Shown here: piece by piece, positions 734 through 55,265 of the stretch | Numbering within the stretch: the stretch's first letter is position 1 | Layout of the letters: each line of letters starts with the position of its first letter | From: Desulfovibrio aminophilus | GTDB taxonomy: Bacteria; Desulfobacterota; Desulfovibrionia; Desulfovibrionales; Desulfovibrionaceae | DNA: 64,000 nucleotides | Direction of reading: 5' to 3' | NCBI RefSeq assembly: GCF_023660105.1 | Contig: NZ_JAMHGA010000012.1 | Span: 124,001 to 188,000 of the forward strand | Notes under the pieces: model-generated | The model's input: the letters and a program-made list of their open reading frames with translations, nothing else | Told to the model about the DNA's origin: nothing | The model's database searches: none | Program-made: the position numbers and the translations under genes

Positions 734-902
734 CTACGCGCCTCCTCTTGCCCATACATGCGCCACCAGGACACTACCACGGACATTTTTCCGAAAAAAT
801 TGCTCCTGGATGTCCGCGCGTGCTCTCCTTTGGCGCATTGATATATGAGACAGGTAGTTGTCCGCAACTATTAACCCTAACTAAGTTCCTGGAGGAACTG
901 CC
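734..902. promoter_or_regulatory. Divergent control region of the Ubl cassette
   Basis: This 169-base gap separates two divergent transcription units, so it must hold both promoters. An inverted repeat AGTTG-TCCG-CAACT at 856-869 is a candidate operator or leader hairpin about 35 bases before the Ubl start. A strong ribosome site GGAGGA at 890-895 serves the Ubl ATG. I could not assign convincing -35/-10 pairs. Confidence 0.4.
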
Positions 903-3237: not shown

Positions 3238-3242
3238 GGGGC

Positions 3243-3596
3243 ATGTTGAAACTCTCTCTCGTCAGATTCCTCGTCGGGCTGCACCTTCTCCCCCGACCCC
3301 AATATTTGAGCTGTATAGTCTCGGAGCACCCCAATCCTGGTGAGGTTGTCGATGGAATGATGCTCATCGTGAAGGAGGGAACGCTTGAGAAATGGGCGTG
3401 TTTTCGCTGCCCTTGTGGATGCGGACAGCGTATTCAGCTATCGCTTTCGCACGTACGGAGGCCTAGATGGGCTGTCCAAACCGATTGGCTGGGGCGGCCG
3501 TCTGTGAACCCCTCTGTGCGCCAACTCTCGGGCTGTCGGAGCCATTTTTGGATCAGGCGCGGTCAGATTCAGTGGTGCAAGGACACAGGAAGGTAG
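3243..3596 (+). CDS. DUF6527-type zinc protein of the Ubl cassette
   Basis: This 117-residue protein has a knuckle FRCPCGCGQRI around residue 54, a tryptophan-rich RRPRWAV turn, SGCRSHFWI and an ending WCKDTGR. The spaced Cys and His residues suggest a bound zinc ion. The pattern matches my memory of the DUF6527 family, which accompanies multiubiquitin operons; its biochemical role is unknown. It starts five bases after the JAB-E1 stop, so it belongs to the operon. It might recognise substrates or act as a ligase-like adaptor, but that is speculation. About 190 bases follow before the convergent integrase gene, with no clear terminator seen. Confidence 0.75.
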   Translation: MLKLSLVRFLVGLHLLPRPQYLSCIVSEHPNPGEVVDGMMLIVKEGTLEKWACFRCPCGCGQRIQLSLSHVRRPRWAVQTDWLGRPSVNPSVRQLSGCRSHFWIRRGQIQWCKDTGR

Positions 3597-3785
3597 AGAA
3601 CTTACCCCATCATCTGATGGGAACCTGGCTTTTGCTGGATAGTCAGGGATAAACCCATTATGCGTTTTCGATGGCATCGGCATGGCACAATGATACGTGC
3701 TATGGCTCCCATAAGTGCAATTCGCAGGCACAAAAAACATCGCCGGTGCAATTTGTTGATAACCGGTCTTCAGCATAAATTTACT

Positions 3786-4766
3786 TTACAACTTCGCAGC
3801 CAAGTCTTCGGCGCGCAGGTGTGTATATCGCTTGAGCATTTCCAACGTCTTGTGGCCGGTGATCGCCGCGACCTCCATCATGTTCAGCCCCTTTTCAAAC
3901 AGACGGCTGGTAGCCTCATGTCTGAGGTCATGGAATCGCAGGTTCTCCAGCTTGGCCCGGCGACAGACTCGATCAAACGCCTGGGTGATCGAGTCCGGAC
4001 GCATGCCCCACACCTGGCCTATGTCGCGTTCACGCAGCATGAGGATTTCCAGGGCACGTGGAGAAAGCGGCACCCGTCGGGAGTCACCGTTTTTTGTTTT
4101 CGGAAGCAGCACGACGCATTTTTTCAGGTTTACATGCTCCCACCGCATGGATGCGATTTCCGCGCGGCGCATGCCCGTTTCCAAAGCAAAGGAAACGATG
4201 TCCGCGAGGTCTCCCCCATAGGATTGGGCGGCCTTGAGGAGCTTTTCCTCTTCACCTGATTTCAGGCGGCGATCCCGGCCATTTGGCAGCTTGGGCTTTC
4301 GGACAAGGGCTGTGGGAAGACCGCGTGGGAGATGAATGCCCCAATCGATGGAGGCGGTTTTCAAGACGCGGTTGAGCAGGCCGAGTGCATGTTTTACGGT
4401 CTGGGGCGCAAGTCCGACCTTCAGACATTGATCCCTGAACTCCGCGATATGAGAAGAATCCATGGCGGCAAGGGAGAGCTTTCCAAGGGACTCCCTCAAA
4501 CGCTCCAAGTTGGAACGCAGGAACTTCCCTCCACCGCAGAGAGTAGGGAAAACTTCTTCGGCGTATCGGTCCAAGGCAGCAGAAAGAGTCGTGCGCTGGG
4601 CCGTATCCGAGGGGATGAAGGCCCCCCGGTCCATTTCCCGTTCCTGGGCCCGGGCCCATGCCTCGGCGTCGGCTTTGGTCGCGAAAGTCTTGGAAATAGG
4701 CGGCTGGCCATCGCGACGGATGCGGGCTTGCCACTTGCCCGAGGCGCGTTTCTGGAAGGTCGCCAA
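3786..4766 (-). CDS. Tyrosine recombinase (island integrase)
   Basis: This 326-residue integrase should insert and excise the island at tRNA-Arg(CCG). The N-terminal 60 residues look like an arm-binding domain (KRASGKWQARIRRDG, then an EAWARAQE helix), followed by a SAM-like core-binding domain. The catalytic domain shows Arg in TGMRRAEI, the HDLRHEA box, a second His in ITGHKT and the nucleophile Tyr in LKRYTHL, so all key residues are present. The start is TTG with GGAGG upstream. The gene begins about 100 bases from the tRNA fragment, and that AT-rich interval should contain its promoter and arm sites. It is convergent with the Ubl cassette. Confidence 0.93.
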   Translation of the reverse strand: MATFQKRASGKWQARIRRDGQPPISKTFATKADAEAWARAQEREMDRGAFIPSDTAQRTTLSAALDRYAEEVFPTLCGGGKFLRSNLERLRESLGKLSLAAMDSSHIAEFRDQCLKVGLAPQTVKHALGLLNRVLKTASIDWGIHLPRGLPTALVRKPKLPNGRDRRLKSGEEEKLLKAAQSYGGDLADIVSFALETGMRRAEIASMRWEHVNLKKCVVLLPKTKNGDSRRVPLSPRALEILMLRERDIGQVWGMRPDSITQAFDRVCRRAKLENLRFHDLRHEATSRLFEKGLNMMEVAAITGHKTLEMLKRYTHLRAEDLAAKL

Positions 4767-4865
4767 CGAAGTGCCTCCGAAGGGTTACTGTCTCCGAATT
4801 GTCTCCATTTAGGCTAAAATTATTGTAAAATTGGCTTATAATCAAGCTTAAATCATAATTTAATT

Positions 4866-4915
4866 TTGGCCTCCGGAGCCAAAGGCCAGGTGTTCGAATC
4901 ACCTATTGCCCACCA
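4866..4915 (+). other. attR: displaced 3' part of tRNA-Arg(CCG)
   Basis: From left to right one can fold an anticodon arm (TTGGC / loop CTCCGGA / GCCAA, anticodon CCG), a short variable region, a T arm (AGGTG / TTCGAAT / CACCT) and the 3' acceptor strand ATTGCCC-A-CCA. No D arm or 5' acceptor strand precedes it; the upstream sequence is AT-rich. This is the leftover 3' end produced by tRNA-site integration. The expected 5' acceptor strand of the parent gene is GGGCAAT. Confidence 0.88.
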
Positions 4916-4922
4916 GCAATAT

Positions 4923-4966
4923 CAGGGAGTTATGCTGTAGCAAGCATGGCTCCCTGTTCTATTTTT
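4923..4966 (+). terminator. Native terminator of the split tRNA-Arg gene
   Basis: A 14-pair stem (CAGGGAG at 4923 pairing with CTCCCTG at 4950, extended inward with two G-U pairs) has loop GTAGCA and is followed by TTCTATTTTT. It lies eight bases after the CCA of the tRNA fragment, so it probably terminated the original tRNA transcript. Confidence 0.85.
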
Positions 4967-5134
4967 CGCCCCCATTTCGCGCCAAGCCGCACCATTCCCG
5001 GTGATCATTTTGTGGGCGAGTCTGCGCTCGCGTCTCCATCAGCCCCGGGCCGGGGAAAGGTCTTTTGTTTCTCGCTGGAATGGCTTAACCAAACCCGGCG
5101 GGGGAGAGCCCCCCAAGGAGGTCGAGAAGCTTTC

Positions 5135-6754
5135 ATGTCCACTGTCGAACGCTTGCTGGACGCCCATCCCCGCGAGGGCGACATCCCTTCCGAATACGCT
5201 CTGGCCGCGCCCATCGAGGACCGGGGCTATCTGCTCAACGGCGAGATTCTCCGCTGGCCCGGCGAAATGGCGCGCATCGACTCGGCCGTGGCCGTGCGTT
5301 CCGGCGACCGCCTCGTGCCGGTCCACATCGGCTACGGCCCGATGCAGGACGAGGCGGCCGGCCTGGCGGCCGTGGCGGCCGCCGACGCGGCCTATGGCGA
5401 CGGCATGGGCGTTTGGCCGACCATGGGCGTGGCCGAACGCATCCGGCATGTGCTGGATTTCATCCCCCGTCTGGAAGAGCGCCGCGACGAGATCGTCCGG
5501 CTCATGATGTGGGAGATCTGCAAGCCCCTGAAGGAGGCCCGCGACGAGTTCGACCGCACGGTGGAGGACATCCGCGACACCGTGGAGGCCCTGCGCGGGC
5601 TGGAGCGCGGCTCCGCCCGTTTCGTCGAGGAGAAGGGCATCTTCGCCCAGATCCGGCGCGCGCCCCTGGGGCCGGTGCTCTGCATGGGGCCCTACAACTA
5701 TCCCCTGAACGAGACCTTCGCCACGCTCATTCCGGCCCTGCTCATGGGCAACACGGTCATCCTCAAGACCCCGCGCCAGGGCCGTCTGCTCTTCGGTCCT
5801 CTGATGGAGCCGTTCCGCGACTGCTTTCCACGGGGCGTGGTGAACATCCTGCACGGCGACCGCCGCCTGGTCCGGCCCATGCTCCAGTCCGGCAGGATCT
5901 CCGTGCTGGCCTTCATCGGCACGAGCGCGGCCGCGGCGTCCCTGCGCGCGCTCCATCCCCACCCGAACCGCCTGCGCTGCGTGCTCGGCCTGGACGCCAA
6001 GAATCCGGCCATCGTCACGGAATCCGCGGACATGGAACTGGCGGCCTCGGAGACGCTCACCGGCAGTCTGGCCTTCAGCGGCCAGCGCTGCACCGCGCTG
6101 AAGATCCTCTTCGTGCACGAGAGCCGCCTGGACGAGATGCTGGAGCGCCTGAACGCTGGCATCGGGCGGCTTTCCGTGGGCATGCCCTGGGCGCCGGGCG
6201 TGAACATCACCCCCCTGCCCACGCCCGGCAGGATCGCCTATCTGACGGAACTGCTGGACGACGCCCGCTCCCGGGGCGCGCGCGCGGTCAATCCCGACGG
6301 CGGCGTCTCGGTGGGCTCCCTGTACCATCCGGCCCTGCTGTCGCCGGTGAACAGCGGCATGCGTGTGTTCCACGAGGAACAGTTCGGCCCCGTGGTCCCG
6401 GTGGTCCCGTTCCGCGACGCCCGCGAGCCCATCGAGGCCCTGGTGCGCTCCAAGTACGGCCAGCAGGTCAGCGTGTTCAGCAACGATCCCGAGTCCCTGG
6501 CCCGGCTCATCGACCCCCTGGTGAACCAGGTCTGCCGGGTGAACGTCAACAGCAAGTGCCAGCGCGGCCCGGACACCTTCCCCTTCACCGGGCGCAAGGA
6601 CTCGGCCGAGGGCACGCTCTCCGTGAGCGACGCCCTGCGCTGCTTCTCCATCCGCACGCTGGTGGCGGCCAAGGGCACCGACGGCAACAAGGCCCTGCTC
6701 AACGACATCGTGAGCGGGCGAAGGTCCAGGTTCCTGTCCTCCGACGGCCTCTAG
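5135..6754 (+). CDS. GapN-like NAD(P)-dependent aldehyde dehydrogenase
   Basis: This 539-residue protein belongs to the aldehyde dehydrogenase superfamily, closest in feel to non-phosphorylating glyceraldehyde-3-phosphate dehydrogenases (ALDH11). Seen: the PYNYPLNE motif with the oxyanion-hole Asn, cofactor-site segment VILKTPRQG, FIGTSAAA, and the nucleophile in FSGQRCTALK near residue 318. Where most family members have the general-base Glu in ELGGK, this protein reads CVLGLDAKNP, with valine and a two-residue insertion. The ATG has AAGGAG upstream; an in-frame earlier ATG at 4946 would start inside the tRNA-Arg terminator and is unlikely. It is the first gene after the island and ends 44 bases before the hydrogenase flavoprotein, so co-transcription is likely. 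The exact substrate is uncertain. Confidence 0.8.
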   Translation: MSTVERLLDAHPREGDIPSEYALAAPIEDRGYLLNGEILRWPGEMARIDSAVAVRSGDRLVPVHIGYGPMQDEAAGLAAVAAADAAYGDGMGVWPTMGVAERIRHVLDFIPRLEERRDEIVRLMMWEICKPLKEARDEFDRTVEDIRDTVEALRGLERGSARFVEEKGIFAQIRRAPLGPVLCMGPYNYPLNETFATLIPALLMGNTVILKTPRQGRLLFGPLMEPFRDCFPRGVVNILHGDRRLVRPMLQSGRISVLAFIGTSAAAASLRALHPHPNRLRCVLGLDAKNPAIVTESADMELAASETLTGSLAFSGQRCTALKILFVHESRLDEMLERLNAGIGRLSVGMPWAPGVNITPLPTPGRIAYLTELLDDARSRGARAVNPDGGVSVGSLYHPALLSPVNSGMRVFHEEQFGPVVPVVPFRDAREPIEALVRSKYGQQVSVFSNDPESLARLIDPLVNQVCRVNVNSKCQRGPDTFPFTGRKDSAEGTLSVSDALRCFSIRTLVAAKGTDGNKALLNDIVSGRRSRFLSSDGL

Positions 6755-6798
6755 GCCGGGGGCGGGCGGCGCGAGAACGCAACCGCAGCGAGGAAGAC

Positions 6799-8796
6799 AT
6801 GGCGCGCATCATCTATGGGGTCTGGGACTCCCGGGTCCAGGACAATCGCGGCAAGGGCCTGTTCGAGATCCCGGAATCGGTGGAGCTGGCCGAATTCGAC
6901 GCCTTCAACCAGGGCAACCCCATCAAGGCCTTCGTGGGCGACCGGGGCTTCTTCGTCTTCGCCCCGGACACGAGCCTGCTGGACGCCCTGTCCCGCCACA
7001 TCGAGGCGGCGGCCAGAGAGTCCTGCGGCAAGTGCACGCCCTGCCGGGTGGGGCTGCACCTCATCCAGGAGAAGCTGGCCGCCCTGCGCGACGGCAAGGG
7101 CGGGCCGGAACTCCTGGAGGAGGCCGTGGAGTTGGCCCGTTTGGCCGCTTCCACCTCGCGCTGCAACCTGGGCCGCTCCAGCGCCGTGGCCCTGCTGGCC
7201 GCCGAGGAACACTTCCGCGACGTGCTCGAGGCCGAGATGGCGGCCGCGCCGCTGCCCGGGCAGTACGGGCTGGCCTACACCACGGCCCCCTGCGTGGAGG
7301 CCTGTCCGGCCAAGGTCAACGTGCCGCGCTACATAGACTACATCAAGGACGGCAAGCCCTCGCACTCCCTGGGCGTGATCCTGCAGAAGTACCCCATGGC
7401 CGCCACCTGCGGCCGGGTCTGCGTGCGCTTCTGCGAGCAGGCCTGCCGCCGGGGCCTGGTGGACGAGCCCGTGGGCATCAAGACCCTCAAGCGCTACGTG
7501 GCCGACCACGAGCACCATCTTTCCGAGCACTGGTTCACCCGCGACCTCATCGAGAAGGAGAAGCCGCCGCATCTCCGGGTGGCCGTGGTGGGGGCCGGTC
7601 CGGCGGGCATCTCCTGCGCCTACCACCTCCTGCTCAAGGGCTACCCAGTGGACGTGCTGGAGGCCCGCGAGGAGGCCGGGGGCATGGCCGCCTGCGGCAT
7701 CCCCAGCTACCGCCTGCCCAAGTCCGTGCTCAAGTCCGAGGTGCGCATCGTGGAGGACCTGGGCGGCCGCATCTTCTACAACCGCCGCATGGGCCGGGAC
7801 TTCACCCTCGACGATCTCTTCGGTCAGGGCTACAAGGCCGTGTTCCTGGCCCTGGGCTGCTCCACGGGACGCGCCCTGGGGGTCAAGGGCGAGCACTGCT
7901 CCCAGGGCTGCCGCTCGGGCGTGGACTTCCTGCTCGACGTGCACGACCACGTGGAGGGCCAGCGGCCCATGAGCCTGGCGGGCCGGACCGTGGTGGCCGT
8001 GGGCGGCGGCAACGTGGCCATGGACTGCGTGCGCTCGGCCCTGCGCCTGGGCGCCAAGGCCGTGCACCTGGTCTACCGTCGGGGTCGCGAGGAGATGCCC
8101 GCGGACCACGAGGAGATCGAGGCCGCCGAGCAGGAGGGCGTGATCTTCCATTTCCTGACAAACCCCACGCGGGTGCTCTCCGAGGACGGCCGGGTCATCG
8201 GCGTGGAGCTCATCGAGATGCGCCTGGTGGAGAACGACGGCCGGGGGCGGCGCGGGGTGGACCCCGTGCCCGGCACGGAACGCGTGCTGCCCTGCGACCT
8301 GCTCATCTCCGCCGTGGGCCAGCAGATGGACAGCGCCTCCATCAGCCCCGGCGACGGCGTGGTCATCGACAAGCGCGGCTGCCTGGAGACCGACCCCATG
8401 ACCCTGGCCACGGCCCGGCAGGGCGTGTTCGCGGGCGGCGACTGCGTGCTCGGCCCCTCGACCCTGATCCACGCCATGGCCAACGGCCTCAAGGCCTCCC
8501 GAGCCATCGACGACTACCTGACCCACGGCCGGGTGCGCTTCTTCGCCCGCAGCCGGATGCGCAAGCTCATCAACGATTTCATGGTCCGCTCGCACGAGTG
8601 GACGGACGCCCCGGTGAAGCACCTCTACCGCATCCGGGGCCAGGAACTGGACCCGGCCGAGCGCCGCGAGCTGTTCGAGGAGGTGGAGCGCCCCATAGGA
8701 CAGGAGGAGGCCTACCGCGAGGCCGGGCGCTGTCTGCGCTGCTACCGCATCTATTCCCTGGTCACGGAATCGCCCATCCCCCAGGGCAGCTACTAG
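6799..8796 (+). CDS. GltD-type flavoprotein with NuoF-like Fe-S domain, hydrogenase partner
   Basis: This 665-residue cytosolic electron-transfer subunit has three parts. Residues about 70-150 resemble the C-terminal 4Fe-4S domain of NuoF (ESCGKCTPCRVG and a later Cys). Residues about 160-250 form the two-cluster domain of glutamate synthase small subunits (cysteines in APCVEACPAK and RVCVRFCEQAC). The rest is a GltD/NfnB-like reductase with FAD motif VVGAGPAGIS, NAD(P)H motif VGGGNVAMDC and an FAD-closing GVFAGGDC. A final CLRCY near the C-terminus is another cysteine pair. The hydrogenase catalytic subunit begins ten bases later. Together they should exchange electrons between NAD(P)H and H2, possibly with ferredoxin. 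The open frame extends far upstream, but GAGGAAG precedes this ATG and homology starts here. Confidence 0.85.
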   Translation: MARIIYGVWDSRVQDNRGKGLFEIPESVELAEFDAFNQGNPIKAFVGDRGFFVFAPDTSLLDALSRHIEAAARESCGKCTPCRVGLHLIQEKLAALRDGKGGPELLEEAVELARLAASTSRCNLGRSSAVALLAAEEHFRDVLEAEMAAAPLPGQYGLAYTTAPCVEACPAKVNVPRYIDYIKDGKPSHSLGVILQKYPMAATCGRVCVRFCEQACRRGLVDEPVGIKTLKRYVADHEHHLSEHWFTRDLIEKEKPPHLRVAVVGAGPAGISCAYHLLLKGYPVDVLEAREEAGGMAACGIPSYRLPKSVLKSEVRIVEDLGGRIFYNRRMGRDFTLDDLFGQGYKAVFLALGCSTGRALGVKGEHCSQGCRSGVDFLLDVHDHVEGQRPMSLAGRTVVAVGGGNVAMDCVRSALRLGAKAVHLVYRRGREEMPADHEEIEAAEQEGVIFHFLTNPTRVLSEDGRVIGVELIEMRLVENDGRGRRGVDPVPGTERVLPCDLLISAVGQQMDSASISPGDGVVIDKRGCLETDPMTLATARQGVFAGGDCVLGPSTLIHAMANGLKASRAIDDYLTHGRVRFFARSRMRKLINDFMVRSHEWTDAPVKHLYRIRGQELDPAERRELFEEVERPIGQEEAYREAGRCLRCYRIYSLVTESPIPQGSY

Positions 8797-46581: not shown

Positions 46582-47568
46582 ATGGTTCAGGAACACACAG
46601 CCACTTTCGCCGGGGGGTGCTTCTGGTGCACCGAGGCGGATTTCCTCAAGCTTCCCGGGGTGATCTCCGTGACGCCAGGCTATGCCGGCGGCTCGGCCGA
46701 AGAGGCGCGCTACGAACTGGTGGCCACCGGCCGCACCGGCCATGTAGAGGCCGTGCAGGTGGTCTACGACCCGGGCCAAGTGTCCTACGAGCGCCTGCTG
46801 GATTGGTTTTGGCGGCACATCGACCCCACGGACGGCGACGGGCAGTTCGTGGACCGGGGCAGCCAATATGCGCCGGTGATCTTCCACCATGACGAGGAAC
46901 AGCGGCGGCGGGCCGAGGCCTCGCGAAAGCGGCTGGAGGATTCGGACCGGTTTCGGGCCGCGCCTGCCGTGGACATCCGGCCGCTCACGACCTTTTTCCC
47001 GGCCGAGGACACGCATCAGAAATTCTGCCGCCGCAATCCCGCTCACTATGCCCACTATCGGGAAGGCTCGGGCCGAGACCGCTTTTTGAAGGCGGCCTGG
47101 GGCGACGTGGAGCCGTTGTCGGCCGAGAGAGCCGCATCGCCGGAGGCGGCGGCGCGGGTCCGGCTCACGCCCCTGCAGCACCACGTGACCCGGGAGCAGG
47201 GCACCGAACCGCCCTTCGCCAACGAGCACTGGGACCGCAAGGAACCGGGGATATATGTGGACGTGCTGGACGGCGCGCCGCTCTTCGCCTCGCGGGACAA
47301 GTACGACTCCGGCACGGGCTGGCCCAGCTTCAGCGGTCCTCTGGAGCCGGAGAACATCGACACCCGCCGGGACGAGTCGCTCTTCCCCCCGCGCACCGAG
47401 GTGCGGGCGCGGCGCTCCGGCAACCATCTCGGGCATGTCTTCCCGGACGGCCCGCCGCCCACGGGCATGCGCTACTGCATGAACTCGGCGGCCCTGCGGT
47501 TCGTGCCCGCCCGGGACTTGGAGCGCGAAGGCTACGGCCGGTATCGCTCCCTGTTCGAGCGGGACTAG
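46582..47568 (+). CDS. msrAB: Fused methionine sulfoxide reductase MsrA-MsrB
   Basis: This 328-residue fusion repairs both epimers of methionine sulfoxide. The MsrA half (about residues 1-170) has the nucleophile in GGCFWCTE and continues through PGYAGG and [16 protein letters not shown]. The MsrB half has GTGWPSF, the GHVF segment and the catalytic Cys in [12 protein letters not shown]. The two CxxC pairs that bind structural zinc in many MsrB proteins are absent ([12 protein letters not shown] replaces them), so it is the zinc-free form. The start was chosen for AGGAGG; no signal peptide is seen, so it is cytosolic. The stop overlaps the stop of the convergent EF-hand gene inside CTAG. Confidence 0.93.
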
Positions 47569-48401
47569 ACGCCCTGCTTGATGAGGTAGGAGAGCAGGTC
47601 CGCGCTGCTCGTGGAGTCGGAGCCCGAGGAGAAGCTCTTCAGCAGGCTCTCGTTGCTCTGGACGAGCTTTTTCAGCTCCGCGGCGCTCAGTTTGCCGTCC
47701 TTGTCCGTGTCGAGCTTGGCGAACGACTCGGCGGACAGCTTGGTCTCGCTCTTGGAGAGCGCGCCGTCCTTGTCCTTGTCGTTCTTCGAGATGTAGTCCG
47801 AGATGACCTTGGAGGTGCTGCTGGAGCCGCTGGACTCGTTCTGGTTCATGATCTCGTCCAGGAGCTGCTGGCTGCCCTTCAGGAAGGTGCTGAGCTCGGC
47901 GGCGCTGATGACGCCGTCCTTGTTCGTGTCGATTCGGGTGAAGGCCTCGTTGGACATCTTGGTTTCGTTGCGGGCCAGGACGCCGTCCTTGTTCTTGTCG
48001 TTCTTCGAGATGTATTCGGCGGCGGCCTTGGAGGCGTCGGCGCTGGTCCCGGAGCTGTTGTCCATGAGCGCATTGAGGATGTTGCTGTCCTTGGACAGGG
48101 ACTTGTAGTTCTTGACGTAGGTCTGGATGGCCTTGCCGTTCTTGCTCAGGTAGGTCCGCATCTCCTCCCGGTCGATGGCGTTGTCGCCGTTGGTGTCCAA
48201 CTGCTTGAACGCCTCCTCGGAGATGCTCACCTCATCCTTGGTCAGGACGTTGTTCCGGTTCTTGTCATTCTCCTGCATGCACTTGCGCGCGGCCACCTCG
48301 GCCCCGGCGGCGCTGGTCTCCGAAGACTGCTGGTTATCGGAATTGCCGGTCAGGAATCCCGGCAGGTAGCGGGCGATCATGGCGCTCGTCACGCGGTTCA
48401 T
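47565..48401 (-). CDS. Protein with six EF-hand calcium-binding loops
   Basis: This 278-residue protein has three pairs of EF-hands. The loops start [63 protein letters not shown] and [12 protein letters not shown], each with acidic residues at the 1, 3, 5 and 12 positions. Between pairs are Ser/Asn-rich linkers. There is no Sec or Tat signal peptide. Within each pair the first loop begins NDK and the second DTN/DTD, which suggests triplication of one two-hand unit. The C-terminus [10 protein letters not shown] is hydrophobic. It could be a calcium buffer or sensor, or a type I secretion substrate given the nearby operon, but neither is shown. Confidence 0.9.
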
Positions 48402-48594: not shown

Positions 48595-48608
48595 GCCGTC
48601 CTGCTCGG

Positions 48609-48624
48609 GAGGGTGTCAGTCGAA
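48609..48624 (+). other. Candidate left attachment site
   Basis: GAGGGTG...TCGAA here matches the tRNA-Ser 3' end segment at 55179-55194 in 13 of 16 positions, in the same orientation. It lies right after the displaced terminator. The match is imperfect and could be chance. Confidence 0.35.
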
Positions 48625-48677
48625 TTGTTGTTTTATGTCACTGAATTTTTGATACAAACAAAATCACATTTTTATCT

Positions 48678-48698
48678 GTGCCCCCAATTATGCCCCCA
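48678..48698 (+). repeat. Left terminal repeat pair GTGCCCCCA-N2-TATGCCCCCA
   Basis: Two near-identical nine- to ten-base units lie 11 bases apart in AT-rich sequence. The same pair with the same spacing occurs at 55039-55059 in the same orientation. They are candidate integrase arm-binding sites. Confidence 0.65.
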
Positions 48699-48850
48699 AT
48701 ATTGTAACATATTGAAATAAATAAATATAATAAAAATCATCCTGAAATAATTTGCGATTATATAGCGGTGCAGAACAAAAAAAGAGGGGCCAGCCTCTCG
48801 GCCAGCCCCCGAACACCGCCGGGCATCGGGAACCCGGCGGGCGCTCCCGG

Positions 48851-49099
48851 TTACTCTTCGGCGGCCCACTCAGCGGCCAGGGCGATTTCGTCAGCCTCGG
48901 CCGGGGGCAACATGCTCATCAAGGTTTCGCCCTGAATCGAGCCATGATCCCGGATGTCTTGGGCCAGGAGCAGCGTCCGATACGCCTTGTGATGCTCGGC
49001 CAGGGGGGCGCGGCTCAGGTCGATGTTGGTGCTCAGGCCGAAGTGCTCCAGGGCTTCCTGGCGGGCGGTCAGCAGGGCGGCGCGTTCAGCGTAGGTCAT
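48851..49099 (-). CDS. Small island protein, unknown function
   Basis: This 82-residue, acidic, mostly helical protein (MTYAERAALLTARQEALEHF onward, ending AAEWAAEE) is not one I recognise. AAGGAG lies upstream of its ATG. It is the most distal gene of the minus-strand island operon, 23 bases after the 300-residue gene. Codon use matches the rest of the island. The 251 bases beyond its stop hold the AT-rich left end of the island. Confidence 0.65.
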   Translation of the reverse strand: MTYAERAALLTARQEALEHFGLSTNIDLSRAPLAEHHKAYRTLLLAQDIRDHGSIQGETLMSMLPPAEADEIALAAEWAAEE

Positions 49100-49122
49100 G
49101 GTAATTCTCCTTTGCGGTTGGG

Positions 49123-50025
49123 CTAGTTCCAGGGGTTCAACCGGGCGCGGTCAGCGTGCCCGGCAACGATGGTCTTGACGCTGGCCAGGAGGTCCGTGGG
49201 GGCCTTCTCGCGCTTGGGAATGGGCATGGCGCTCATGATCTGCCCGGCGATGGCGTCACCGTAGGCGGCGGCCACCTCGGCAAAACGGATGGAGTCGCGC
49301 CACGCTTCCAGGAATCCGGCCCCGCCGATCTTGCGCATGAGCACCTCCCGCGCCCGACGCATGGGTTCCTCGGCCACCAGCCCGACCCCGCCGGGGTCAT
49401 CGTCCAGGGCATGGAGCGCGTCCACCAGACCACGGCCCGCGAGGGCCAGGGCAAAGCGGGGGCGCTCGTTCTCGGGCATCTCCAGGGCGCGGCGGCGGAT
49501 TTCACCAGCCCGCAGTTCCCGCACCATGAGCCCGTGCCCCTCGATGGGCTCAGGCAGGAGGGCAGCCACGGCAAGGCCGGTCAACTGCTCGGCCTGCTCC
49601 AGAAGCGGCGCAAGGCCCTTCTCAATGGCAAACGGGAGCTTTTCCAGGGCGGGAGCGAGCTTTTCCAGCGTCCGGGCCTCGCGCACGGAGTCCTTGAGGT
49701 CGCGGTTGCGGGCCACGGCCAGGGCGGCCTGGACGCCGGGAGCCACGTCCGCCAGGATGCCTTTCATCCACGCGGCATAAGTCGGAACCAGGGCCGTGCG
49801 CTCAAGCTGGGTGTCGTTGGCGACGATCTGCCCTAGCTGCCAATCCATGCCCTCGGGCAGCCCCAGGCCGGAACTGGCGATGCTCCCGAAGGGGGAGGGG
49901 CCGGTGGCCTTGGTGGTCCGCTCCATGTCGCGCTCGGGGGCGTCCCGGAGGGGCTGGGCCACCTTCACACCCGGGGCCGTGATGACGGCGACGGGGCCGG
50001 TGCTGTTTCGTTCGATCTTGATCAT
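49123..50025 (-). CDS. Island protein of 300 residues, unknown function
   Basis: This protein shows no motif I know. The first 75 residues are polar and Pro/Thr-rich. The rest is helical and Ala/Leu/Glu-rich (RTLEKLAPALEKLPFAIEKG, AGEIRRRALEMPENERP). No signal peptide or transmembrane span is present. The ATG was chosen because AAGGAG precedes it closely; the longer open frame upstream lacks a ribosome site. In satellites this position often holds genes interfering with or packaged by a helper phage, but I have no evidence for that here. Confidence 0.7.
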   Translation of the reverse strand: MIKIERNSTGPVAVITAPGVKVAQPLRDAPERDMERTTKATGPSPFGSIASSGLGLPEGMDWQLGQIVANDTQLERTALVPTYAAWMKGILADVAPGVQAALAVARNRDLKDSVREARTLEKLAPALEKLPFAIEKGLAPLLEQAEQLTGLAVAALLPEPIEGHGLMVRELRAGEIRRRALEMPENERPRFALALAGRGLVDALHALDDDPGGVGLVAEEPMRRAREVLMRKIGGAGFLEAWRDSIRFAEVAAAYGDAIAGQIMSAMPIPKREKAPTDLLASVKTIVAGHADRARLNPWN

Positions 50026-50051
50026 GTCTTTTCTCCTTGTATTCCCGATGG

Positions 50052-50288
50052 TTAAAGTGTTTCCCATTCTTTCGAGACGGCTACCAGAAGCGGGCAGGTG
50101 GTCGCGGCTTCGGCACGGCCCTTGAGGTCCGGCCAACTCTCCCCGGGCAGGCGGCGGAATGTCTGCCCCCCGGCCCGCACCTCGTGGATTTCGGCATCGT
50201 TGTCGGGCACGATCCACGTGCGCGGAACACGACGATCCACGCGGCCAGCCTCCAGAGCCTCCACGCGGGCGGCGATGCTACGCGGCAT
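50052..50288 (-). CDS. Small island protein, unknown function
   Basis: This 78-residue protein starts MPRSIAARVEALEAGRV and ends AVSKEWETL, with a middle strand-rich part (RTWIVPDNDAEIHEV). No family was recognised. Its start overlaps the end of the preceding 74-residue gene by 11 bases, and the 300-residue gene follows 26 bases later. The N-terminal RVEALE helix resembles that of the neighbouring 74-residue protein (RLARLERD), which hints at a common origin. Confidence 0.6.
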   Translation of the reverse strand: MPRSIAARVEALEAGRVDRRVPRTWIVPDNDAEIHEVRAGGQTFRRLPGESWPDLKGRAEAATTCPLLVAVSKEWETL

Positions 50289-50502
50289 GATCCACCTCCG
50301 GCTCAGGGCGGCGGCAATCCGCCACTTGGGCCACAAGCATTTCGTGGGGGCAGGCGGCGCGGGCCTCGGCCTGGGAAGCATAGGCCTTGCCGTTGAAGCT
50401 CACCGAGCCGTCAAGGTGTTCGATAGCCACGATCACGGGCGCGATGGGGCGGCGGTCTTCGGCGTCCCGCTCAAGCCGGGCAAGGCGGTTCCTGATGTTC
50501 AT
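50278..50502 (-). CDS. Small island protein, unknown function
   Basis: This 74-residue protein begins MNIRNRLARLERDAEDRR and contains VIVAIEHLDGSVSFNGKAY, a likely beta hairpin. Similar short proteins with an N-terminal RL.RLE helix are common in phage and satellite DNA. AAAGGAG lies upstream. It overlaps both neighbours: four bases with the preceding gene (ATGA) and 11 with the next. No function can be given. Confidence 0.65.
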   Translation of the reverse strand: MNIRNRLARLERDAEDRRPIAPVIVAIEHLDGSVSFNGKAYASQAEARAACPHEMLVAQVADCRRPEPEVDHAA

Positions 50503-50756
50503 CGAGTTTTCTCCTTTGCCTGGGCCTCCAGGCGCTTTTCCAGGTCGCTTGTGCTGATGACCCCGGCCAGCACTTGGCCGAGGTAGCCGAGACAGCGGGC
50601 AAGCCCCGGGTCCAGTTCGCCCCGGTTTGCGCGGTTGGTCACGTCGGCCAAGAACACGCGCAGGTCTTGGGCGGTTTTCAGCCGCCGCTTTGGCAGTGGC
50701 CGGGGGGCCTGGGAGGCTTTCCCTTTGGCGGCCTTGGTTGCTGGCGTTCTTTTCAT
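50499..50756 (-). CDS. Small basic island protein, unknown function
   Basis: This 85-residue protein has a very basic N-terminal third (KRTPATKAAKGKASQAPRPL) followed by helices (TAQDLRVFLADVTNRANRG, LGYLGQVLAGVISTSDLEKRL). The second part resembles short phage proteins with an N-terminal basic tail and could bind nucleic acid. It sits 65 bases after the primase gene and overlaps the next gene by four bases. Confidence 0.65.
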   Translation of the reverse strand: MKRTPATKAAKGKASQAPRPLPKRRLKTAQDLRVFLADVTNRANRGELDPGLARCLGYLGQVLAGVISTSDLEKRLEAQAKEKTR

Positions 50757-50821
50757 GCGAAAACTCCTGTCTATCTGTGTGCGATTCGCGCAGAAATGGC
50801 CCTAGGATCGCGTCTAGCGCG

Positions 50822-51946
50822 TCAGGCGGCCTCTGCTGTCCCCGCATCGAACGCGGCGGCATCCTCGGGGCATTCGCGCCGCCAGAGGGCAACGAGTTCG
50901 TCCAGGGCCTCACCCACGGCAACGTCAACAGGCGTCAGGGTCGCGGCCTCGATCCAGAACCGGACAAGTCCCGGCGTCCCGGCCATGTCCCCCACGTCTT
51001 TTCCATCCGGGCAAGGCCAGGGCTCGGCCTTGGGGAAATGCTCTTTCCACCAGGGCCACGCCTCGATACCGGCGCGGTCGAAATCCAGGGCTGCAAGGAT
51101 GCGCGGGGCGGCCCGGAGGTAGGCGGCGGCATCGGCGTCAGGCTTGCCGGTCGCGGTCCCCAGGGCCAGGGCTCCGGCCAGGTCGCGGGCCTCCTGCCAG
51201 ATCAGCACGGCGTCAAGCTCGGATTCGACCACCACCACGGGCTTGTCGGGGTCGCCGCCCAGGCCGAGGCCAGGGGTTGAGCCGGGCAGGGCGCAATACT
51301 TCGGGAGTCGATCCTCAGGCGTCCAGGCGAACCGGCGGACCTTCACGGCCACCAGCCCGGACTTGCGGCGAGAGGGGACCACCAGCCCGGCAGGGAGCCA
51401 GACGCGGCGGGGGTTGCCCTTGTCGTTCAACTCGGGTTCCAGGCCCCACGCCTCGCGGGCCTCAAAGCGGTCCTGGGGATTCCAGCCGACGCCCAGGCGG
51501 CGCACGGTGTCCGGCGTCAGCCCCCGACCCTCGGCATAGGCCAAGCCCTCGGAACCGGGCGTCATATTTGCGGCGCACTCGGCAACGAATCGGGCGGCCT
51601 GCTCCTGCCAGGATACGACGGGCGTTGTCGCGGGCTTAGGCTCCCAGGTCCGGCGGACAGGCCGGACATGTCCGGTGTGTCCCGTCCGGGTCCGGGGCTC
51701 CATCTTGAGGGCGGCGCACGCTTCAGGATAGCTCAGGCCGTCGCGGTCCCTGAGGAACTGGATAGCGTCCCCGGTGCGTCCACAGGCCCGGCAGAGGTAG
51801 CGGCCCCCGGCGTCTCCGCTCGGATGGTCCGGCCAGACACGGAAGCGGTCCCGGCCGCCGCACCAGGGACACGGCCCGGCCCATTCGCCGCCCGAGGTTC
51901 CGGCAACGTGTTTCAACTCGGCAGGGAATAGGTCCAGAATATTCAT
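50822..51946 (-). CDS. Zinc-finger/TOPRIM primase
   Basis: This 374-residue DnaG-like primase would make RNA primers for island replication. Residues about 20-60 form a CHC2-like zinc finger with CPWC and CRAC pairs and an adjacent GDAIQFLRDRDGLSYPEA. Residues about 230-330 form a TOPRIM fold: KPVVVVESELDAVL carries the catalytic Glu and LAALDFDRAGIEA the Asp pair. The start overlaps the ATPase stop (ATGA). A 14-base palindrome CCGGACATGTCCGG lies inside its coding region. Confidence 0.88.
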   Translation of the reverse strand: MNILDLFPAELKHVAGTSGGEWAGPCPWCGGRDRFRVWPDHPSGDAGGRYLCRACGRTGDAIQFLRDRDGLSYPEACAALKMEPRTRTGHTGHVRPVRRTWEPKPATTPVVSWQEQAARFVAECAANMTPGSEGLAYAEGRGLTPDTVRRLGVGWNPQDRFEAREAWGLEPELNDKGNPRRVWLPAGLVVPSRRKSGLVAVKVRRFAWTPEDRLPKYCALPGSTPGLGLGGDPDKPVVVVESELDAVLIWQEARDLAGALALGTATGKPDADAAAYLRAAPRILAALDFDRAGIEAWPWWKEHFPKAEPWPCPDGKDVGDMAGTPGLVRFWIEAATLTPVDVAVGEALDELVALWRRECPEDAAAFDAGTAEAA

Positions 51947-52073
51947 TCGGCCCGTCCCTGACCCTGGACGGACACCGGACAACGGACAGGGTCTAAAGAC
52001 CCCTGTCCTGTCCGTCCGGTCTGGTGTCCCCCGGACATGTCTGGACATTGTCCGGTTTTGTCCGGTTGTCCGG
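51662..52073. repeat. TGTCCGG / CCGGACA repeat cluster within the replication genes
   Basis: Perfect palindrome CCGGACATGTCCGG lies at 51662-51675. CCGGACA recurs at 51975 and 52031 (there as CCGGACATGTCTGG). Direct TGTCCGG copies start at 52049, 52059 and 52067. The main group straddles the ATPase/primase junction. Iterons of this density are typical of plasmid or P4-type origins, so this is a candidate island origin. Confidence 0.55.
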
Positions 52074-53178
52074 TTATCCAAAAGTGGTCATCGAGAGTGC
52101 CGACAAGCCCGAGGTCCAGCAGGTCCGCCACGGCCCTCTTGAATGTCCGCCGCTTGTTCTCCTGATCCTCGGAAGCACTCACGCCGCGCCGGTATGCCTC
52201 GGCCCGCCACTTCTCGATATGCGCCCGGCCCTCGGCCCCGCAGGCGTCCCGCAGGGCCTCCAGGGCAATGCGCTTCGCCCCGGTCAAGGCCCTTCCCTTT
52301 TTGCCGGGCACGTCCACCTGCCGCAGGACAAGGGAGCCGATGGGATCGCCCGTCTCGGGGTCGGTCCAGCCGGTCGGCACGGTGTCCGCCTCAAGGGCCA
52401 TGTCCGCCGGGACATCGTGGTCCTTGGCCTTGGTGCAGGTCAGGACGCGGGTATCGTCCCGCACGTCCAGCCGGTATTCCCAATCGAGGGCGGCACGCAG
52501 GGCTGAGGCCCCACGCGCCCGGTCGCGCTCGGCAAGGCCGCTGTGATGCACCACCAGCACGGCGCACCCAAAGCGAGCCCGCAGACGGTCCAGGGCCGCA
52601 ATAAAGGCGCTCATGTCCTGAGTGCTGTTTTCATCGGCCCCGAAGCAGCGGGCCAAGGTGTCGATGACGATCAGCCGGGGGCGCTCGGCAAGGTCGGTAA
52701 TCGCGGATGTTGCGGCTTCCACGCTTGCCGGGTCGAGGAACTGCACGGCCTCGCTGGCGACATGGAACGGCAGGCCCTCCCCGGTCAGGTGGTGGGCCCG
52801 GAGCCACGCCTTGATACGTCGGGACAGGCCCCGGAAGCCCTCGCCCGCGACATAGACCACGGGGCCAGCCTGGGGCACGTCCACCCCCTGCCAGGGCAGG
52901 CCGGAGGCGATGCTCAGCCCCATGTCCAGGGCCACGAAGCTTTTCATGCTCCCGGACGCGCCGAAGAGGCAGGCTAGGGCCTCGGCCTCCAGATAGTCGC
53001 GCAAAAGCCAGGCCGTGGGCCGGGGCTCGGCCAGCATCTCGGACAGGTCCAGGAGCCGGAAGGCGCGGCGGGGCTCATCCTCTGCCGGGGCCTCTTGGGG
53101 CTTCTCGGCAGCACGGAAAGCCTCGGCCCGCTCCAGCACGGCGGCGCGGATTTTCAAAAGGTCCGGCGCGGCGGCCAT
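51943..53178 (-). CDS. RepA-like RecA-fold ATPase/helicase
   Basis: This 411-residue protein belongs to the AAA_25/RepA type of RecA-fold ATPases, which act as replicative helicases of small plasmids and satellites. Walker A is FGASGSMKSF near residue 90, Walker B is LIVIDTLARCFGADENS, and VLVVHHSG is the following strand. The C-terminal 40 residues are low-complexity with repeated TGQ/GRTG units, encoded by the TGTCCGG repeats. The ATG lies one base before the AlpA-like stop. An upstream in-frame ATG would overlap that gene and is less likely. Confidence 0.87.
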   Translation of the reverse strand: MAAAPDLLKIRAAVLERAEAFRAAEKPQEAPAEDEPRRAFRLLDLSEMLAEPRPTAWLLRDYLEAEALACLFGASGSMKSFVALDMGLSIASGLPWQGVDVPQAGPVVYVAGEGFRGLSRRIKAWLRAHHLTGEGLPFHVASEAVQFLDPASVEAATSAITDLAERPRLIVIDTLARCFGADENSTQDMSAFIAALDRLRARFGCAVLVVHHSGLAERDRARGASALRAALDWEYRLDVRDDTRVLTCTKAKDHDVPADMALEADTVPTGWTDPETGDPIGSLVLRQVDVPGKKGRALTGAKRIALEALRDACGAEGRAHIEKWRAEAYRRGVSASEDQENKRRTFKRAVADLLDLGLVGTLDDHFWITGQPDKTGQCPDMSGGHQTGRTGQGSLDPVRCPVSVQGQGRAE

Positions 53179-53179
53179 G

Positions 53180-53383
53180 CTAGGCGGCCTCCTGCCCCGC
53201 AGTGCGGCCCTCCATCCATTCCCGCACATCCTCGGCCCGCCATGCAGTGGTGCGGGGTCCGAGCTTCACGGGCTTGGGGAAGCGGCCTTCTTTGGTCCAT
53301 GCCCAAAGCGTGGCGCGGCAGACGGGAACGAAGGAGAGGACTTGCTTGTCGCGGAGGAAACCAGCGGAAGGTAATTCGGCCAT
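53180..53383 (-). CDS. AlpA-like MerR-type helix-turn-helix regulator
   Basis: This 67-residue protein matches the AlpA/excisionase group found next to integrases: RDKQVLSFVPVCRATLWAWTKEGRFPKPVKLGPRTTAWRAEDV. It combines a small helix-turn-helix with a wing and the WR...V.EW ending. AlpA proteins activate integrase or replication genes of P4-like elements. I chose the second ATG because GGAG precedes it by seven bases; the upstream ATG adds four residues. It is the first gene of the replication operon. Confidence 0.88.
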   Translation of the reverse strand: MAELPSAGFLRDKQVLSFVPVCRATLWAWTKEGRFPKPVKLGPRTTAWRAEDVREWMEGRTAGQEAA

Positions 53384-53572
53384 ATGGCGCTCCATTCGGA
53401 ACGCCGGGCCTATTTAAAGGGGCGGGCGGTCTGGATTACGAGGCGGAGGGCGGGCTTAATGCCGGGCCTCTTGGCTCGGAGAAGAGGGGGCGGCTATTGG
53501 CCGGGGCCTCTTCCTGGAAAGGCATATAGGCTGGACGGATTCAGTTGTCAATAGATTCTTTAGAGAAAAAAA

Positions 53573-53599
53573 GCCCCGCCTCCAGGTCGGAGACGGGGC
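53573..53599 (-). terminator. Intrinsic terminator on the minus strand after the integrase unit
   Basis: A stem of GCCCCG(T/C)CTCC paired across loop GACCT reads into seven T residues on the minus strand (A run at 53566-53572). It lies about 25 bases past the last possible small frame after the integrase gene. It should end integrase transcription before the AlpA-like unit. Confidence 0.85.
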
Positions 53600-53654
53600 C
53601 ATATGGGCCAGGGGGCCGGGTTACTACTTCGCGCCGGGCAGGCGGGTGATCTTC

Positions 53655-53750
53655 TCAGGCATCGGGGGCCTCCCCAGGGTATTGCAGAGTTTCCGTCTCG
53701 TTGGCGATGGCATGGAGCCGCTTGTTAAGCTCCGTGAGGATGCGCCCCAC
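53655..53750 (-). CDS. Possible 31-residue peptide after the integrase
   Basis: A GTG-started frame encodes MGRILTELNKRLHAIANETETL and a nine-residue tail. It begins 16 bases after the integrase stop and looks like a real amphipathic helix, but no good ribosome site is present. Its stop overlaps a tiny 12-residue frame (53624-53662, MPEKITRLPGAK). Confidence 0.3.
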   Translation of the reverse strand: MGRILTELNKRLHAIANETETLQYPGEAPDA

Positions 53751-53766
53751 GCCGGGCGGGTGTCGC

Positions 53767-54999
53767 CTATGCGCTCTTGCTCTTGAACAGGGGCAGCACC
53801 TTGCCGCCGTCCGAAGCCTTGAGCCGGTCCAGGAAGTCCGCCCAACTCTCCATCATCTCAATGCGTTGGGACAGATATTGCGCCCGATTGTAGGCCGCCC
53901 GGATCGCATTCTTCGGCGCGTGGGCAAGCTGGGCCTCGATCACGTCCGGGGGCCAGCCGATTTCATTCAACATGGTACTTGCCATAGCCCGGAAGCCGTG
54001 GGCGGTCATTTCCTCGCTGGTATAGCCGAGGGTGCGCAGGGCCGCGCCCAAGGTATTTTCCGAGATGATCTTGCCGGGGCGGTTGCCGGGGAACAGATAC
54101 TTGCCCGCGCCAGTCAGGGGGTGAAGCTCCCGCAGAATCGCCACGGCCTGGGGGGCCAAGGGAACAAGGTGCTGGCGGCGCATCTTCATCTTCTCGGGCG
54201 GGATGCGCCAGAGAGGGGTTCGGCCGTCAAGCTCGAACTCGGCCCATTCCGCATGGCGGAGTTCGCCGGGCCGAACAAAGAGCAGGGGGGCCAGCCGGAG
54301 GGCGCAGCGGACCACGTGCGAACCCTGGTAGGCGTCAATATCCTTGAGCAGTTCGGCCACCTTGAACGAGTCCGTCAGGGCCGCGAAGTGGCGCTTTGCT
54401 GGCGGAGGCACGGCCCCCCGGAGGTCTGCCGCCGGGTTGCGCTCGGCCCGGCCGGTCGCCACGGCGAAGGCCAGGATTTGCCCGATCTTCTGCAACTGGC
54501 GGCGGGCGGTTTCGGCCGCGCCCCGATCCTCAATGCGCCGGACCACGGCCAGGATTTCCGGGGCGGTGATCTCGCGCACGGGCCGATGCCCCAGCCACGG
54601 GAAAACGTCCGTCTTGAGTCGGTGCATCACGGTATCGCCATGCTTGGCCGTGAAGGTGTGCCGGAACCGCTCGAACCAATCCAGGGCTAGGGCCTCGAAG
54701 GTTTCCGCTTCGGCCACTTCTCCGGCCTTCTCGGCTTTCCGCACGGCAGAGGGGTCTATGCCCTGGGCCAGGAGTTTACGGGCGGCCTCGGCCTTGTCGC
54801 GGGCATCAGCTAGGCCCACGGCGGGATATGCCCCCAGGGCGAGACGCTTTTCCTTGCCCCCAAAACGGAACTTGAGCCGCCAGAGCTTGCCCCCGGCAGG
54901 GGATATCTCCAAGTACATGCCCCCGCCGTCAAAGAGGCGCTGGGGCTTCGGGCCTGGCTTGGCGTTGCGGATCGCGGTGTCAGTGAGCTTGCCGGGCAT
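53767..54999 (-). CDS. P4-type tyrosine integrase
   Basis: This 410-residue recombinase belongs to the P4/CP4-57 group with the DUF4102 N-terminal arm-binding domain (MPGKLTDTAIRNAKPGPKPQ, then KLWRLKFRFGGKEKRL). Catalytic residues are visible: Arg in RPGELRHAEW, HGFRAMAST, His in LAHAPKN and the Tyr in AAYNRAQYL. AGGAGG lies upstream of the ATG. The gene starts about 170 bases from the tRNA-Ser 3' end, its probable target. Repeat units at 55031-55059 lie between the two. Confidence 0.94.
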   Translation of the reverse strand: MPGKLTDTAIRNAKPGPKPQRLFDGGGMYLEISPAGGKLWRLKFRFGGKEKRLALGAYPAVGLADARDKAEAARKLLAQGIDPSAVRKAEKAGEVAEAETFEALALDWFERFRHTFTAKHGDTVMHRLKTDVFPWLGHRPVREITAPEILAVVRRIEDRGAAETARRQLQKIGQILAFAVATGRAERNPAADLRGAVPPPAKRHFAALTDSFKVAELLKDIDAYQGSHVVRCALRLAPLLFVRPGELRHAEWAEFELDGRTPLWRIPPEKMKMRRQHLVPLAPQAVAILRELHPLTGAGKYLFPGNRPGKIISENTLGAALRTLGYTSEEMTAHGFRAMASTMLNEIGWPPDVIEAQLAHAPKNAIRAAYNRAQYLSQRIEMMESWADFLDRLKASDGGKVLPLFKSKSA

Positions 55000-55030
55000 G
55001 GGGGCATCCTCCTGGCCTTGGGGGCTGAAA

Positions 55031-55059
55031 ATGCCCCCGTGCCCCCAGATATGCCCCCA
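55031..55059 (+). repeat. Right terminal repeats (xTGCCCCCx, three units)
   Basis: ATGCCCCC, GTGCCCCCA and TATGCCCCCA lie head to tail, starting 32 bases upstream of the integrase start. The last two repeat the left-end pair at 48678-48698 with identical spacing. They are candidate arm-type integrase sites and may also affect integrase expression. Confidence 0.65.
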
Positions 55060-55171
55060 CTTTTGCCGGGTGTCAATGGTCTATATCGGACTCTATCGGA
55101 CACTTTGGCAACAAAAAACCCCGGATTTCCGGGGCTTTCTGGGCCGTTTTGGCCGTGGTCGGATTCTCATA

Positions 55172-55265
55172 TGGCGGAGAGGGTGGGATTCGAACCCACG
55201 TGCCGGTTATTAGCCGACAACCCGATTTCGAGTCGGGCCCGTTACGGCCACTTCGGTACCTCTCC
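55172..55265 (-). tRNA. tRNA-Ser (anticodon CGA)
   Basis: The acceptor stem is GGAGAGG with CCTCTCC, the discriminator is G and CCA is encoded. The anticodon loop CTCGAAA gives CGA. There is a long class II variable arm and a T loop GTTCGAATC. It is intact and serves as the attachment site of the island on its left. No terminator lies directly after it now. Confidence 0.96.

Follow-up and report, generated by a model that had tools for sequence, protein, structure and literature searches.

A probable phage satellite at a tRNA-Ser gene of Desulfovibrio aminophilus with a homologue of a phage protein from the small-terminase position

What kind of mobile element is inserted at the tRNA-Ser(CGA) gene in a 64-kb stretch of the Desulfovibrio aminophilus genome (contig NZ_JAMHGA010000012.1, positions 124,001 to 188,000; hereafter the window)? 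The element, E1, is an integrative element of about 6.5 kb (about 48.6-55.17 kb of the window) with all genes on the minus strand, and a preliminary description had proposed a phage satellite or a small integrative plasmid. Our analysis favours the first half of this proposal and disfavours the second: E1 is probably a phage satellite, one of a family of compact elements of this kind in Desulfovibrionaceae and relatives, rather than an integrative plasmid, because a homologue of a phage protein encoded at the position of the small terminase subunit (TerS) is present in E1 as well as in its relatives. At the level of sequence, the comparisons show an integrase-bearing, capsid-less family with replication genes and a module that is homologous, in one gene (A), to a terminase-adjacent phage protein. 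The integrase, AlpA, RecA-fold ATPase, primase and five small genes of the preliminary description are all present (E2 is a second element in the same genome; aa, amino acids):

53767-54999, minus strand: tyrosine integrase, 410 aa (Arm-DNA-bind_3, 1.4e-28; Phage_int_M, 1.6e-36; Phage_integrase, 3e-17; phrog_1, 1.8e-61)
53180-53383, minus strand: AlpA-type regulator/excisionase, 67-71 aa depending on the start (PF05930, 2.8e-14)
51943-53178, minus strand: RepA-type RecA-fold ATPase (AAA_25), 411 aa, probable replicative helicase (PF13481, 2.2e-43; phrog_2850, 2e-54; phrog_906, 1.9e-45)
50822-51946, minus strand: primase with zinc ribbon and Toprim-like part, 374 aa (PF08273, Zn_Ribbon_Prim, 2.2e-9; phrog_849, 6.2e-26); its start overlaps the RepA stop (ATGA)
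50499-50756, minus strand: gene A, 85 aa; profile match to the C-terminal half of DUF5681/TerS-position proteins
50278-50502, minus strand: gene B, 74 aa; helix with the motif RLxRLE (by eye) at the N-terminal end, 59% identical to B of E2
50052-50288, minus strand: gene C, 78 aa; helix with the motif RVEALE (by eye) at the N-terminal end, 59% identical to C of E2
49123-50025, minus strand: gene D, 300 aa; mostly helical in a model, 31% identical to D of E2 (Z 23.9)
48851-49099, minus strand: gene E, 82 aa; no detectable homology (Z 0.5) to the 79-aa protein in the same place of E2
48778-48847, minus strand: terminator formed by two hairpins and a T-run (z -3.9 and -4.7), 98.6% identical to its counterpart in E2

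None of the nine products matched a structural, lysis or relaxase family in Pfam or PHROGs, which bears out the earlier view of a satellite-like element without structural genes. Overlaps of a few bases between RepA and primase, A and B, and B and C fit a single operon. A Toprim_2 match of the primase (0.014) remained under the cut-off.

Gene A and the small-terminase position

The 85-aa A protein of E1 has no family match when searched alone. Of the 37 A genes examined, 22 encode a protein of about twice this length (148-182 aa); among three long proteins scanned, DUF5681 lies in the N-terminal half (above the Pfam cut-off in two, below it in one), and the A domain corresponds to the C-terminal half. 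In profile comparisons by hhalign, the E-values of which refer to single comparisons, short A matched long A (A6 versus A7) with 97% probability, long A matched three phage proteins with 97.7% over 124 columns, and short A matched the phage proteins directly (A6 versus A5) with 86.7%; a control comparison of A6 with the B profile, which has the RLxxLE motif in common with it, gave 0.7%. The match to the phage homologues covers most of the length of E1 A and the full length of the long A proteins of the relatives.

Scans of two of these phage proteins both gave phrog_9747, a family of unknown function. By tblastn, one of the two matched 190 phage records; annotations among the 60 matches listed were mostly hypothetical and nowhere TerS. 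Fourteen matching records were opened, besides six reference phages, and 12 of the 14 homologues include the C-terminal half: the gene for the large terminase subunit (TerL) comes next in 7 of these 12 and after one intervening gene in 4, and in the remaining one it is unlabelled (in DDSR119 the labels of the large and small subunits are evidently swapped, judged by gene length). The thirteenth record is an unannotated scaffold with tail genes recognised by eye and with two RLxxLE proteins encoded after A. By profile comparison and gene context, gene A is thus homologous to a phage gene directly upstream of TerL, and its homologues sit at the TerS position in phages; a label "TerS" for A, drawn from sequence, denotes homology and position, not fold or function. 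AlphaFold predicts a full-length relative of A to be helical (pLDDT 80.8), with a confident C-terminal hairpin that corresponds to the A domain. Gene A also suggests a role for a domain family of unknown function.

TerS proteins combine a DNA-binding N-terminal domain with an oligomerisation core. Since A lacks the N-terminal half in both E1 and E2, it is hardly a complete TerS; short A would be either an adaptor working with the TerS or TerL of a helper phage, or a means of interference with them. A tblastn search of the phage collection with A gave no match.

How E1 would work as a satellite can be outlined from its gene families. The integrase, by its family and position, would insert the element at the tRNA 3' end; AlpA would switch it on, or aid excision, on arrival of a helper; and the RepA-type helicase and the primase would copy it. 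A, together with B, C and D, would then join or replace part of the helper terminase complex, with B and C possibly contacting A through coiled coils, and the outcome would be either that the helper packages satellite DNA or that the helper is slowed. A more specific version, which we regard as possible if doubtful, is that E1, E2 and their close relatives carry a split TerS device, in which a free C-terminal TerS domain (A) joins two adaptors (B and C) by way of the RLxxLE coiled-coil motif common to them, as well as a new helical protein of 270-330 residues (D), and the assembly re-targets or blocks the packaging motor of the helper without a full TerS or capsid genes of the satellite's own.

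We rank packaging aid ahead of interference. That A-D of a satellite form an interference device, A acting as host-defence cargo in which a dominant-negative fragment of TerS disables the terminase of the helper, appears rather unlikely: E1-type A does lack the N-terminal half of its longer homologues, as such a fragment would, but the long form is kept in the 22 A genes mentioned above, which fits packaging.

The A-D module in E2 and in related elements

E2 was found by a search with D and lies on the same contig as E1, at a distance of 158 kb (G000:C12:330705-337380; L095 5706-12381). It is 6.7 kb long, with an exact 49-bp repeat of tRNA-Pro(GGG) at its two ends. Its genes encode a different integrase, a 73-aa protein at the AlpA position, a helix-turn-helix (HTH) protein similar to initiators of phage replication and an ERCC4 nuclease, followed by A, B, C and D. 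The 73-aa gene had no Pfam match and the label AlpA was dropped. The integrase and replication module of E2 are unrelated to those of E1. The two integrases align only at Z 2.1 and the small genes after them at Z 1.2, whereas A (69% identity, Z 52), B (59%, Z 31), C (59%, Z 38) and D (31%, Z 24) can be aligned, and a DNA block over A-C is 73% identical. As these four genes align and the rest differs, the A-D cluster is the unit common to both elements. With its perfect 49-bp attachment (att) repeat, E2 is the better experimental subject of the two.

In the relatives, B is found after A and C after B; neither has a Pfam or PHROG match, and their profiles have weak N-terminal similarity only (18%). 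Profile searches detected D in six loci (E1, E2, L096, L127, L133 and, weakly, L129); its alignment includes L129 (E 4.7e-6) and L130 (no profile match at E 0.05) partly by position, and there the assignment is tentative. The D protein is predicted to be mostly helical (AlphaFold pLDDT 71.7), belongs to no known family, and gave no match at E<=0.001 in a structure search. The top PDB entries were long-helix proteins including subunits of alpha-pore-forming toxins, and a relationship to these toxins was rejected at TM-scores <0.3, which we read as long helices in common. Among 199 genomes of the family, 4 matched D, of which its own genome and G143 were kept; weak matches in G183 and G122 lie inside hydrogenase-type genes, as read by eye, and were dropped. 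An exact-peptide scan for D in GTDB contigs and a tblastn search of the phage collection with the D candidate of L130 gave no match.

Gene E was dropped, on its Z value, as a gene common to E1 and E2. Beside these last genes, which have no detectable homology, stand the near-identical 70-bp double terminators (48778-48847 in E1, about 5852-5920 of L095 in E2), which suggests, on sequence evidence, a recent exchange of element ends. Elsewhere the 70 bp have partial matches only, in 29 of the 199 genomes at E<=0.01 including the own genome, the best outside it being 36 nt long. A packaging (pac or cos) site was considered as the cause of the identity and rejected; terminator exchange is the simpler reading because the stretch folds as a double terminator and has only partial matches outside E1 and E2.

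An A profile built from three elements matched 15 of the 348 genomes of the class and a wider A profile matched 46. The loci examined are 36 with 37 A genes, namely 13 new places from the first profile, 20 regions holding 21 of the 37 additional places from the second, and E1, E2 and L096; 16 places of the wider profile lie outside this set. A tyrosine integrase is encoded 2.0-8.3 kb upstream on the same strand for 29 of the 37 A genes. Six of the other eight have <4.6 kb of contig upstream; L136 and L190 are the exceptions with room, L190 having its integrase downstream. At 22 tRNA or tmRNA genes tested, repeats of 49-75 bp were found in 9, shorter ones in 5 (31, 20, 15, 15 and 14 bp; one away from the 3' end) and none of >=11 bp in 8, including E1. 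The long repeats bracket integrase and A in all nine cases, delimiting elements of about 5.5, 6.0, 6.7, 7.6, 9.5, 10.4, 11.9, 16 and 17.6 kb. Gene A provides a simple marker: the combination of an integrase with a DUF5681 C-terminal domain downstream of it leads to bounded elements at tRNA genes throughout Desulfovibrionales.

The replication modules of these elements, called from reading of the translations in the relatives, vary: RepA and primase in E1 and L130, HTH protein and ERCC4-like nuclease in E2 and, by resemblance, in L127, L128 and L135, and larger primase-helicases elsewhere. The comparison shows, as judged from gene order and similarity, an A-D module that stays together while the integrase and replication modules joined to it differ. 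This bears on the alternative that E1 is a decayed prophage remnant, in which integrase, replication genes and a terminase-adjacent operon were kept and the remainder was lost. The A-like genes of phages do adjoin terminase genes, and the left att copy of E1 was not found, as such a remnant would allow; but the reading frames are intact, many genomes show a comparable order of genes, in nine cases with long att repeats and with sizes that start at 5.5 kb, and decay would not leave A-D in place while integrase and replication modules differ. E2 and the bounded relatives weaken the reading as a remnant, which is very unlikely. Degenerate structural genes alongside E1, named beforehand as the observation that would point to a remnant, were not seen; the flanking open reading frames read as ordinary host genes (translations read by eye, no family search of the flanks).

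In three loci (L138 1063-6106, L173 6202-9249 and L181 5608-9664), large genes after A-B match PHROGs of tail-injection transglycosylases or endolysins, and satellites of this type may modify the injection apparatus of the helper. L138 was considered as a prophage fragment, a reading dropped because the same gene block stands behind an integrase in L173. TerL was matched neither in the 36 loci nor in a set of 63 named loci on GTDB contigs. The TerL query set used matches 30 of 80 viral control loci, one of which, L011, contributed its own protein to the set; it replaced an insensitive screen with few references (2 of 80). A helicase gene served to select the control loci, some of which may lack TerL, so the absence of TerL from the relatives is only moderate evidence; portal and capsid were screened with a few reference proteins only, and their absence is weak evidence.

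The 63 named loci are mostly from alphaproteobacteria, otherwise largely from Desulfovibrionaceae and other deltaproteobacteria, and at least 3 lie on the same contigs as the 36. In Roseovarius azorensis (L257 9953-10602) the order is integrase-primase-A-B, followed by host genes. Loci of this marker type with integrase, primase, DUF5681 and RLxxLE proteins thus occur in alphaproteobacteria as well, and the family may be wide.

The other alternative to a satellite, a small integrative plasmid or mobilisable island in which RepA and primase replicate the element after excision and A-D are maintenance or host-benefit genes, appears unlikely. ATPases of the E1 type occur on plasmids too (100 of 72,556 plasmid records at E<=1e-5, but 690 of 50,697 phage records), and no helper was found by the terminase searches described below. 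Against a plasmid stand the nine products without a relaxase match, without a partition or toxin-antitoxin family in Pfam, PHROGs or PADLOC, the conserved gene A as a TerS-position homologue, and the virion-injection-type genes of some relatives. PADLOC matched the primase to reverse transcriptase (RT)-associated DnaG-like models (1.3e-9 and 1.7e-5), which in our reading reflects the primase fold, and gave weak matches of AlpA and the ATPase (0.0035 or worse) and none of genes A-E up to E 1.

Insertion site, borders and helper search

The ends of E1 are marked by the following features:

55172-55265, minus strand: tRNA-Ser(CGA), by ARAGORN; its 3' end is the integration site and the right edge of E1 is 55171
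55039-55065, no strand assigned: candidate integrase arm-type site, right end (TGGGGGCA repeats), a 27-nt direct repeat, 85% identical to 48678-48704; putative role
48678-48704, no strand assigned: candidate integrase arm-type site, left end (TGGGGGCA repeats), partner of 55039-55065; putative role
48602-48627, minus strand: possible decayed left att core, 16 of 26 positions identical to the tRNA 3' end with the 7-bp CACCCTC kept; not significant

Synteny with two genomes of the same genus (G028 and G060) breaks <=1 base from the 3' end of the tRNA-Ser, at 55171/55172 of the window. The right end given previously, 55194, falls within the tRNA gene and is replaced by 55171. In one congeneric genome, the one with an AT-rich insert, the host gene that borders E1 on the left (47565-48401) is found 1.4 kb away from this tRNA-Ser, and from this position and the synteny the left edge is placed between about 48400 and 48670. 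The tRNA-Ser is occupied by other insertions in two congeners, a different integrase in G028 and a 1.4-kb AT-rich insert without integrase in the other genome (L109 4064-12075 and L110 10470-11898), and is therefore a hotspot. The candidate 27-nt TGGGGGCA repeat just inside both ends has the arrangement expected of integrase arm sites. The element of L127, inserted at tRNA-Ser(CGA) as well, repeats 20 bp of just the tRNA end concerned in E1, and its integrase is among the closest to that of E1; E1 has probably lost its left att, or it recombines in a very short core.

Several observations weigh against E1 being a satellite, or against the terminase connection of A. No left att copy was found: the 20-nt tRNA 3' end with <=3 mismatches has no match in the whole window besides the tRNA itself, and its last 16 nt with <=1 mismatch have none elsewhere on the contig; the 16/26 match at the left end was equalled by 58 of 500 shuffles. 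E1 itself may therefore be fixed and immobile. A fold search with the full-length A relative matched common helical hairpins, with no solved TerS among the matches listed, and TerS proteins usually bind DNA with a part that the C-terminal domain alone does not have. In Yersinia P778 the homologue matches in its N-terminal part only (query residues 9-67), with no labelled terminase in the 12 kb shown. Relatives of A and D were not found in IMG/VR by a peptide-pattern search, nor any of A, B, C and D in 80 viral loci fetched with the ATPase. An integrase was detected in 23 of the 63 named loci, upstream of A on the same strand in only 16, a count that may be too low as the integrase queries came from Desulfovibrionales.

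Nor was a helper found in the own genome, where a terminase search with Terminase_6N and PF05876 only gave one Terminase_6N match near a contig end, with no visible prophage around, and no PF05876 match. A CRISPR array of the same genome (G000:C18; L206 about 1900-8300) has 103 repeats of 29 bp; its 102 spacers gave no match to E1 or E2 (E<=0.05), and in the remaining fetched loci they matched short stretches only (at most 23 nt with 2 mismatches). Candidate helpers are suggested by the gene contexts of A: phages in which a DUF5681-type gene precedes TerL, together with relatives of such phages.

At the left end of the window, positions 1-5000 have a low GC content (0.49-0.59 per kb against about 0.68 elsewhere) and a tyrosine integrase match at about 3810-4268 on the minus strand, and probably represent a further integrated element.

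Comparison with known systems

Phage satellites have been described mainly from enterobacteria, vibrios and Gram-positive cocci. A literature search on phage satellites in Desulfovibrio and other sulfate-reducing bacteria, or on DUF5681, brought up no such elements in titles and the beginnings of abstracts.

P4-like satellites have an AlpA/Vis-type regulator, an integrase and a tRNA site, which E1 has likewise; their core genes encode the alpha primase-helicase, Sid, Psu and Delta, families that no E1 product matched. Capsid-forming phage-inducible chromosomal islands (cfPICIs) bring their own capsid-forming and packaging genes, and E1 has no capsid, portal or TerL match. The gene-set comparison called for in the preliminary description speaks against membership of E1 in either group (nine products, Pfam and PHROGs). 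L011 (IMGVR_UViG_2910534825_000004, 11 kb) resembles a cfPICI; in this int-AlpA-RepA locus an E1-like ATPase occurs together with a terminase-like gene and, read by eye, an HNH-like protein. The phrog_9747/DUF5681-type proteins before TerL are homologous to A, differ from E1 A in having the N-terminal half, and belong to phages that are not satellites.

Like the phage-inducible chromosomal islands (PICIs) of Gram-negative type, E1 has integrase, AlpA, replication genes, a single direction of transcription and no structural or lysis genes, and some PICIs carry a terS homologue; the size of PICIs, however, is stated as 12-15 kb, against about 6.5 kb in E1 and 6.7 kb in E2 (PMC6092414). E1 has instead a separate RepA ATPase with a zinc primase, and its TerS-like gene is a C-terminal half accompanied by B, C and D. 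That source also gives as a criterion that PICI attachment sites are never used by prophages (PMC6092414); the tRNA-Ser used by E1 holds another integrase in G028, in an element of uncertain nature. With the phage-inducible chromosomal minimalist islands (PICMIs) of Vibrionaceae, E1 has in common a very compact set of int, alpA, primase and few unknown genes (PMC10803314). PICMIs lie beside fis and have a primase of DUF3987 with DUF5906 (same source), whereas E1 lies at a tRNA-Ser and has a Zn_Ribbon_Prim primase and an AAA_25 ATPase; those relatives of E1 for which an att repeat was found use tRNA sites and carry A. The word "terminase" does not occur in the main text of PMC10803314. E1 would work like a PICI or a PICMI but departs from PICIs in size and from PICMIs in insertion site and primase.

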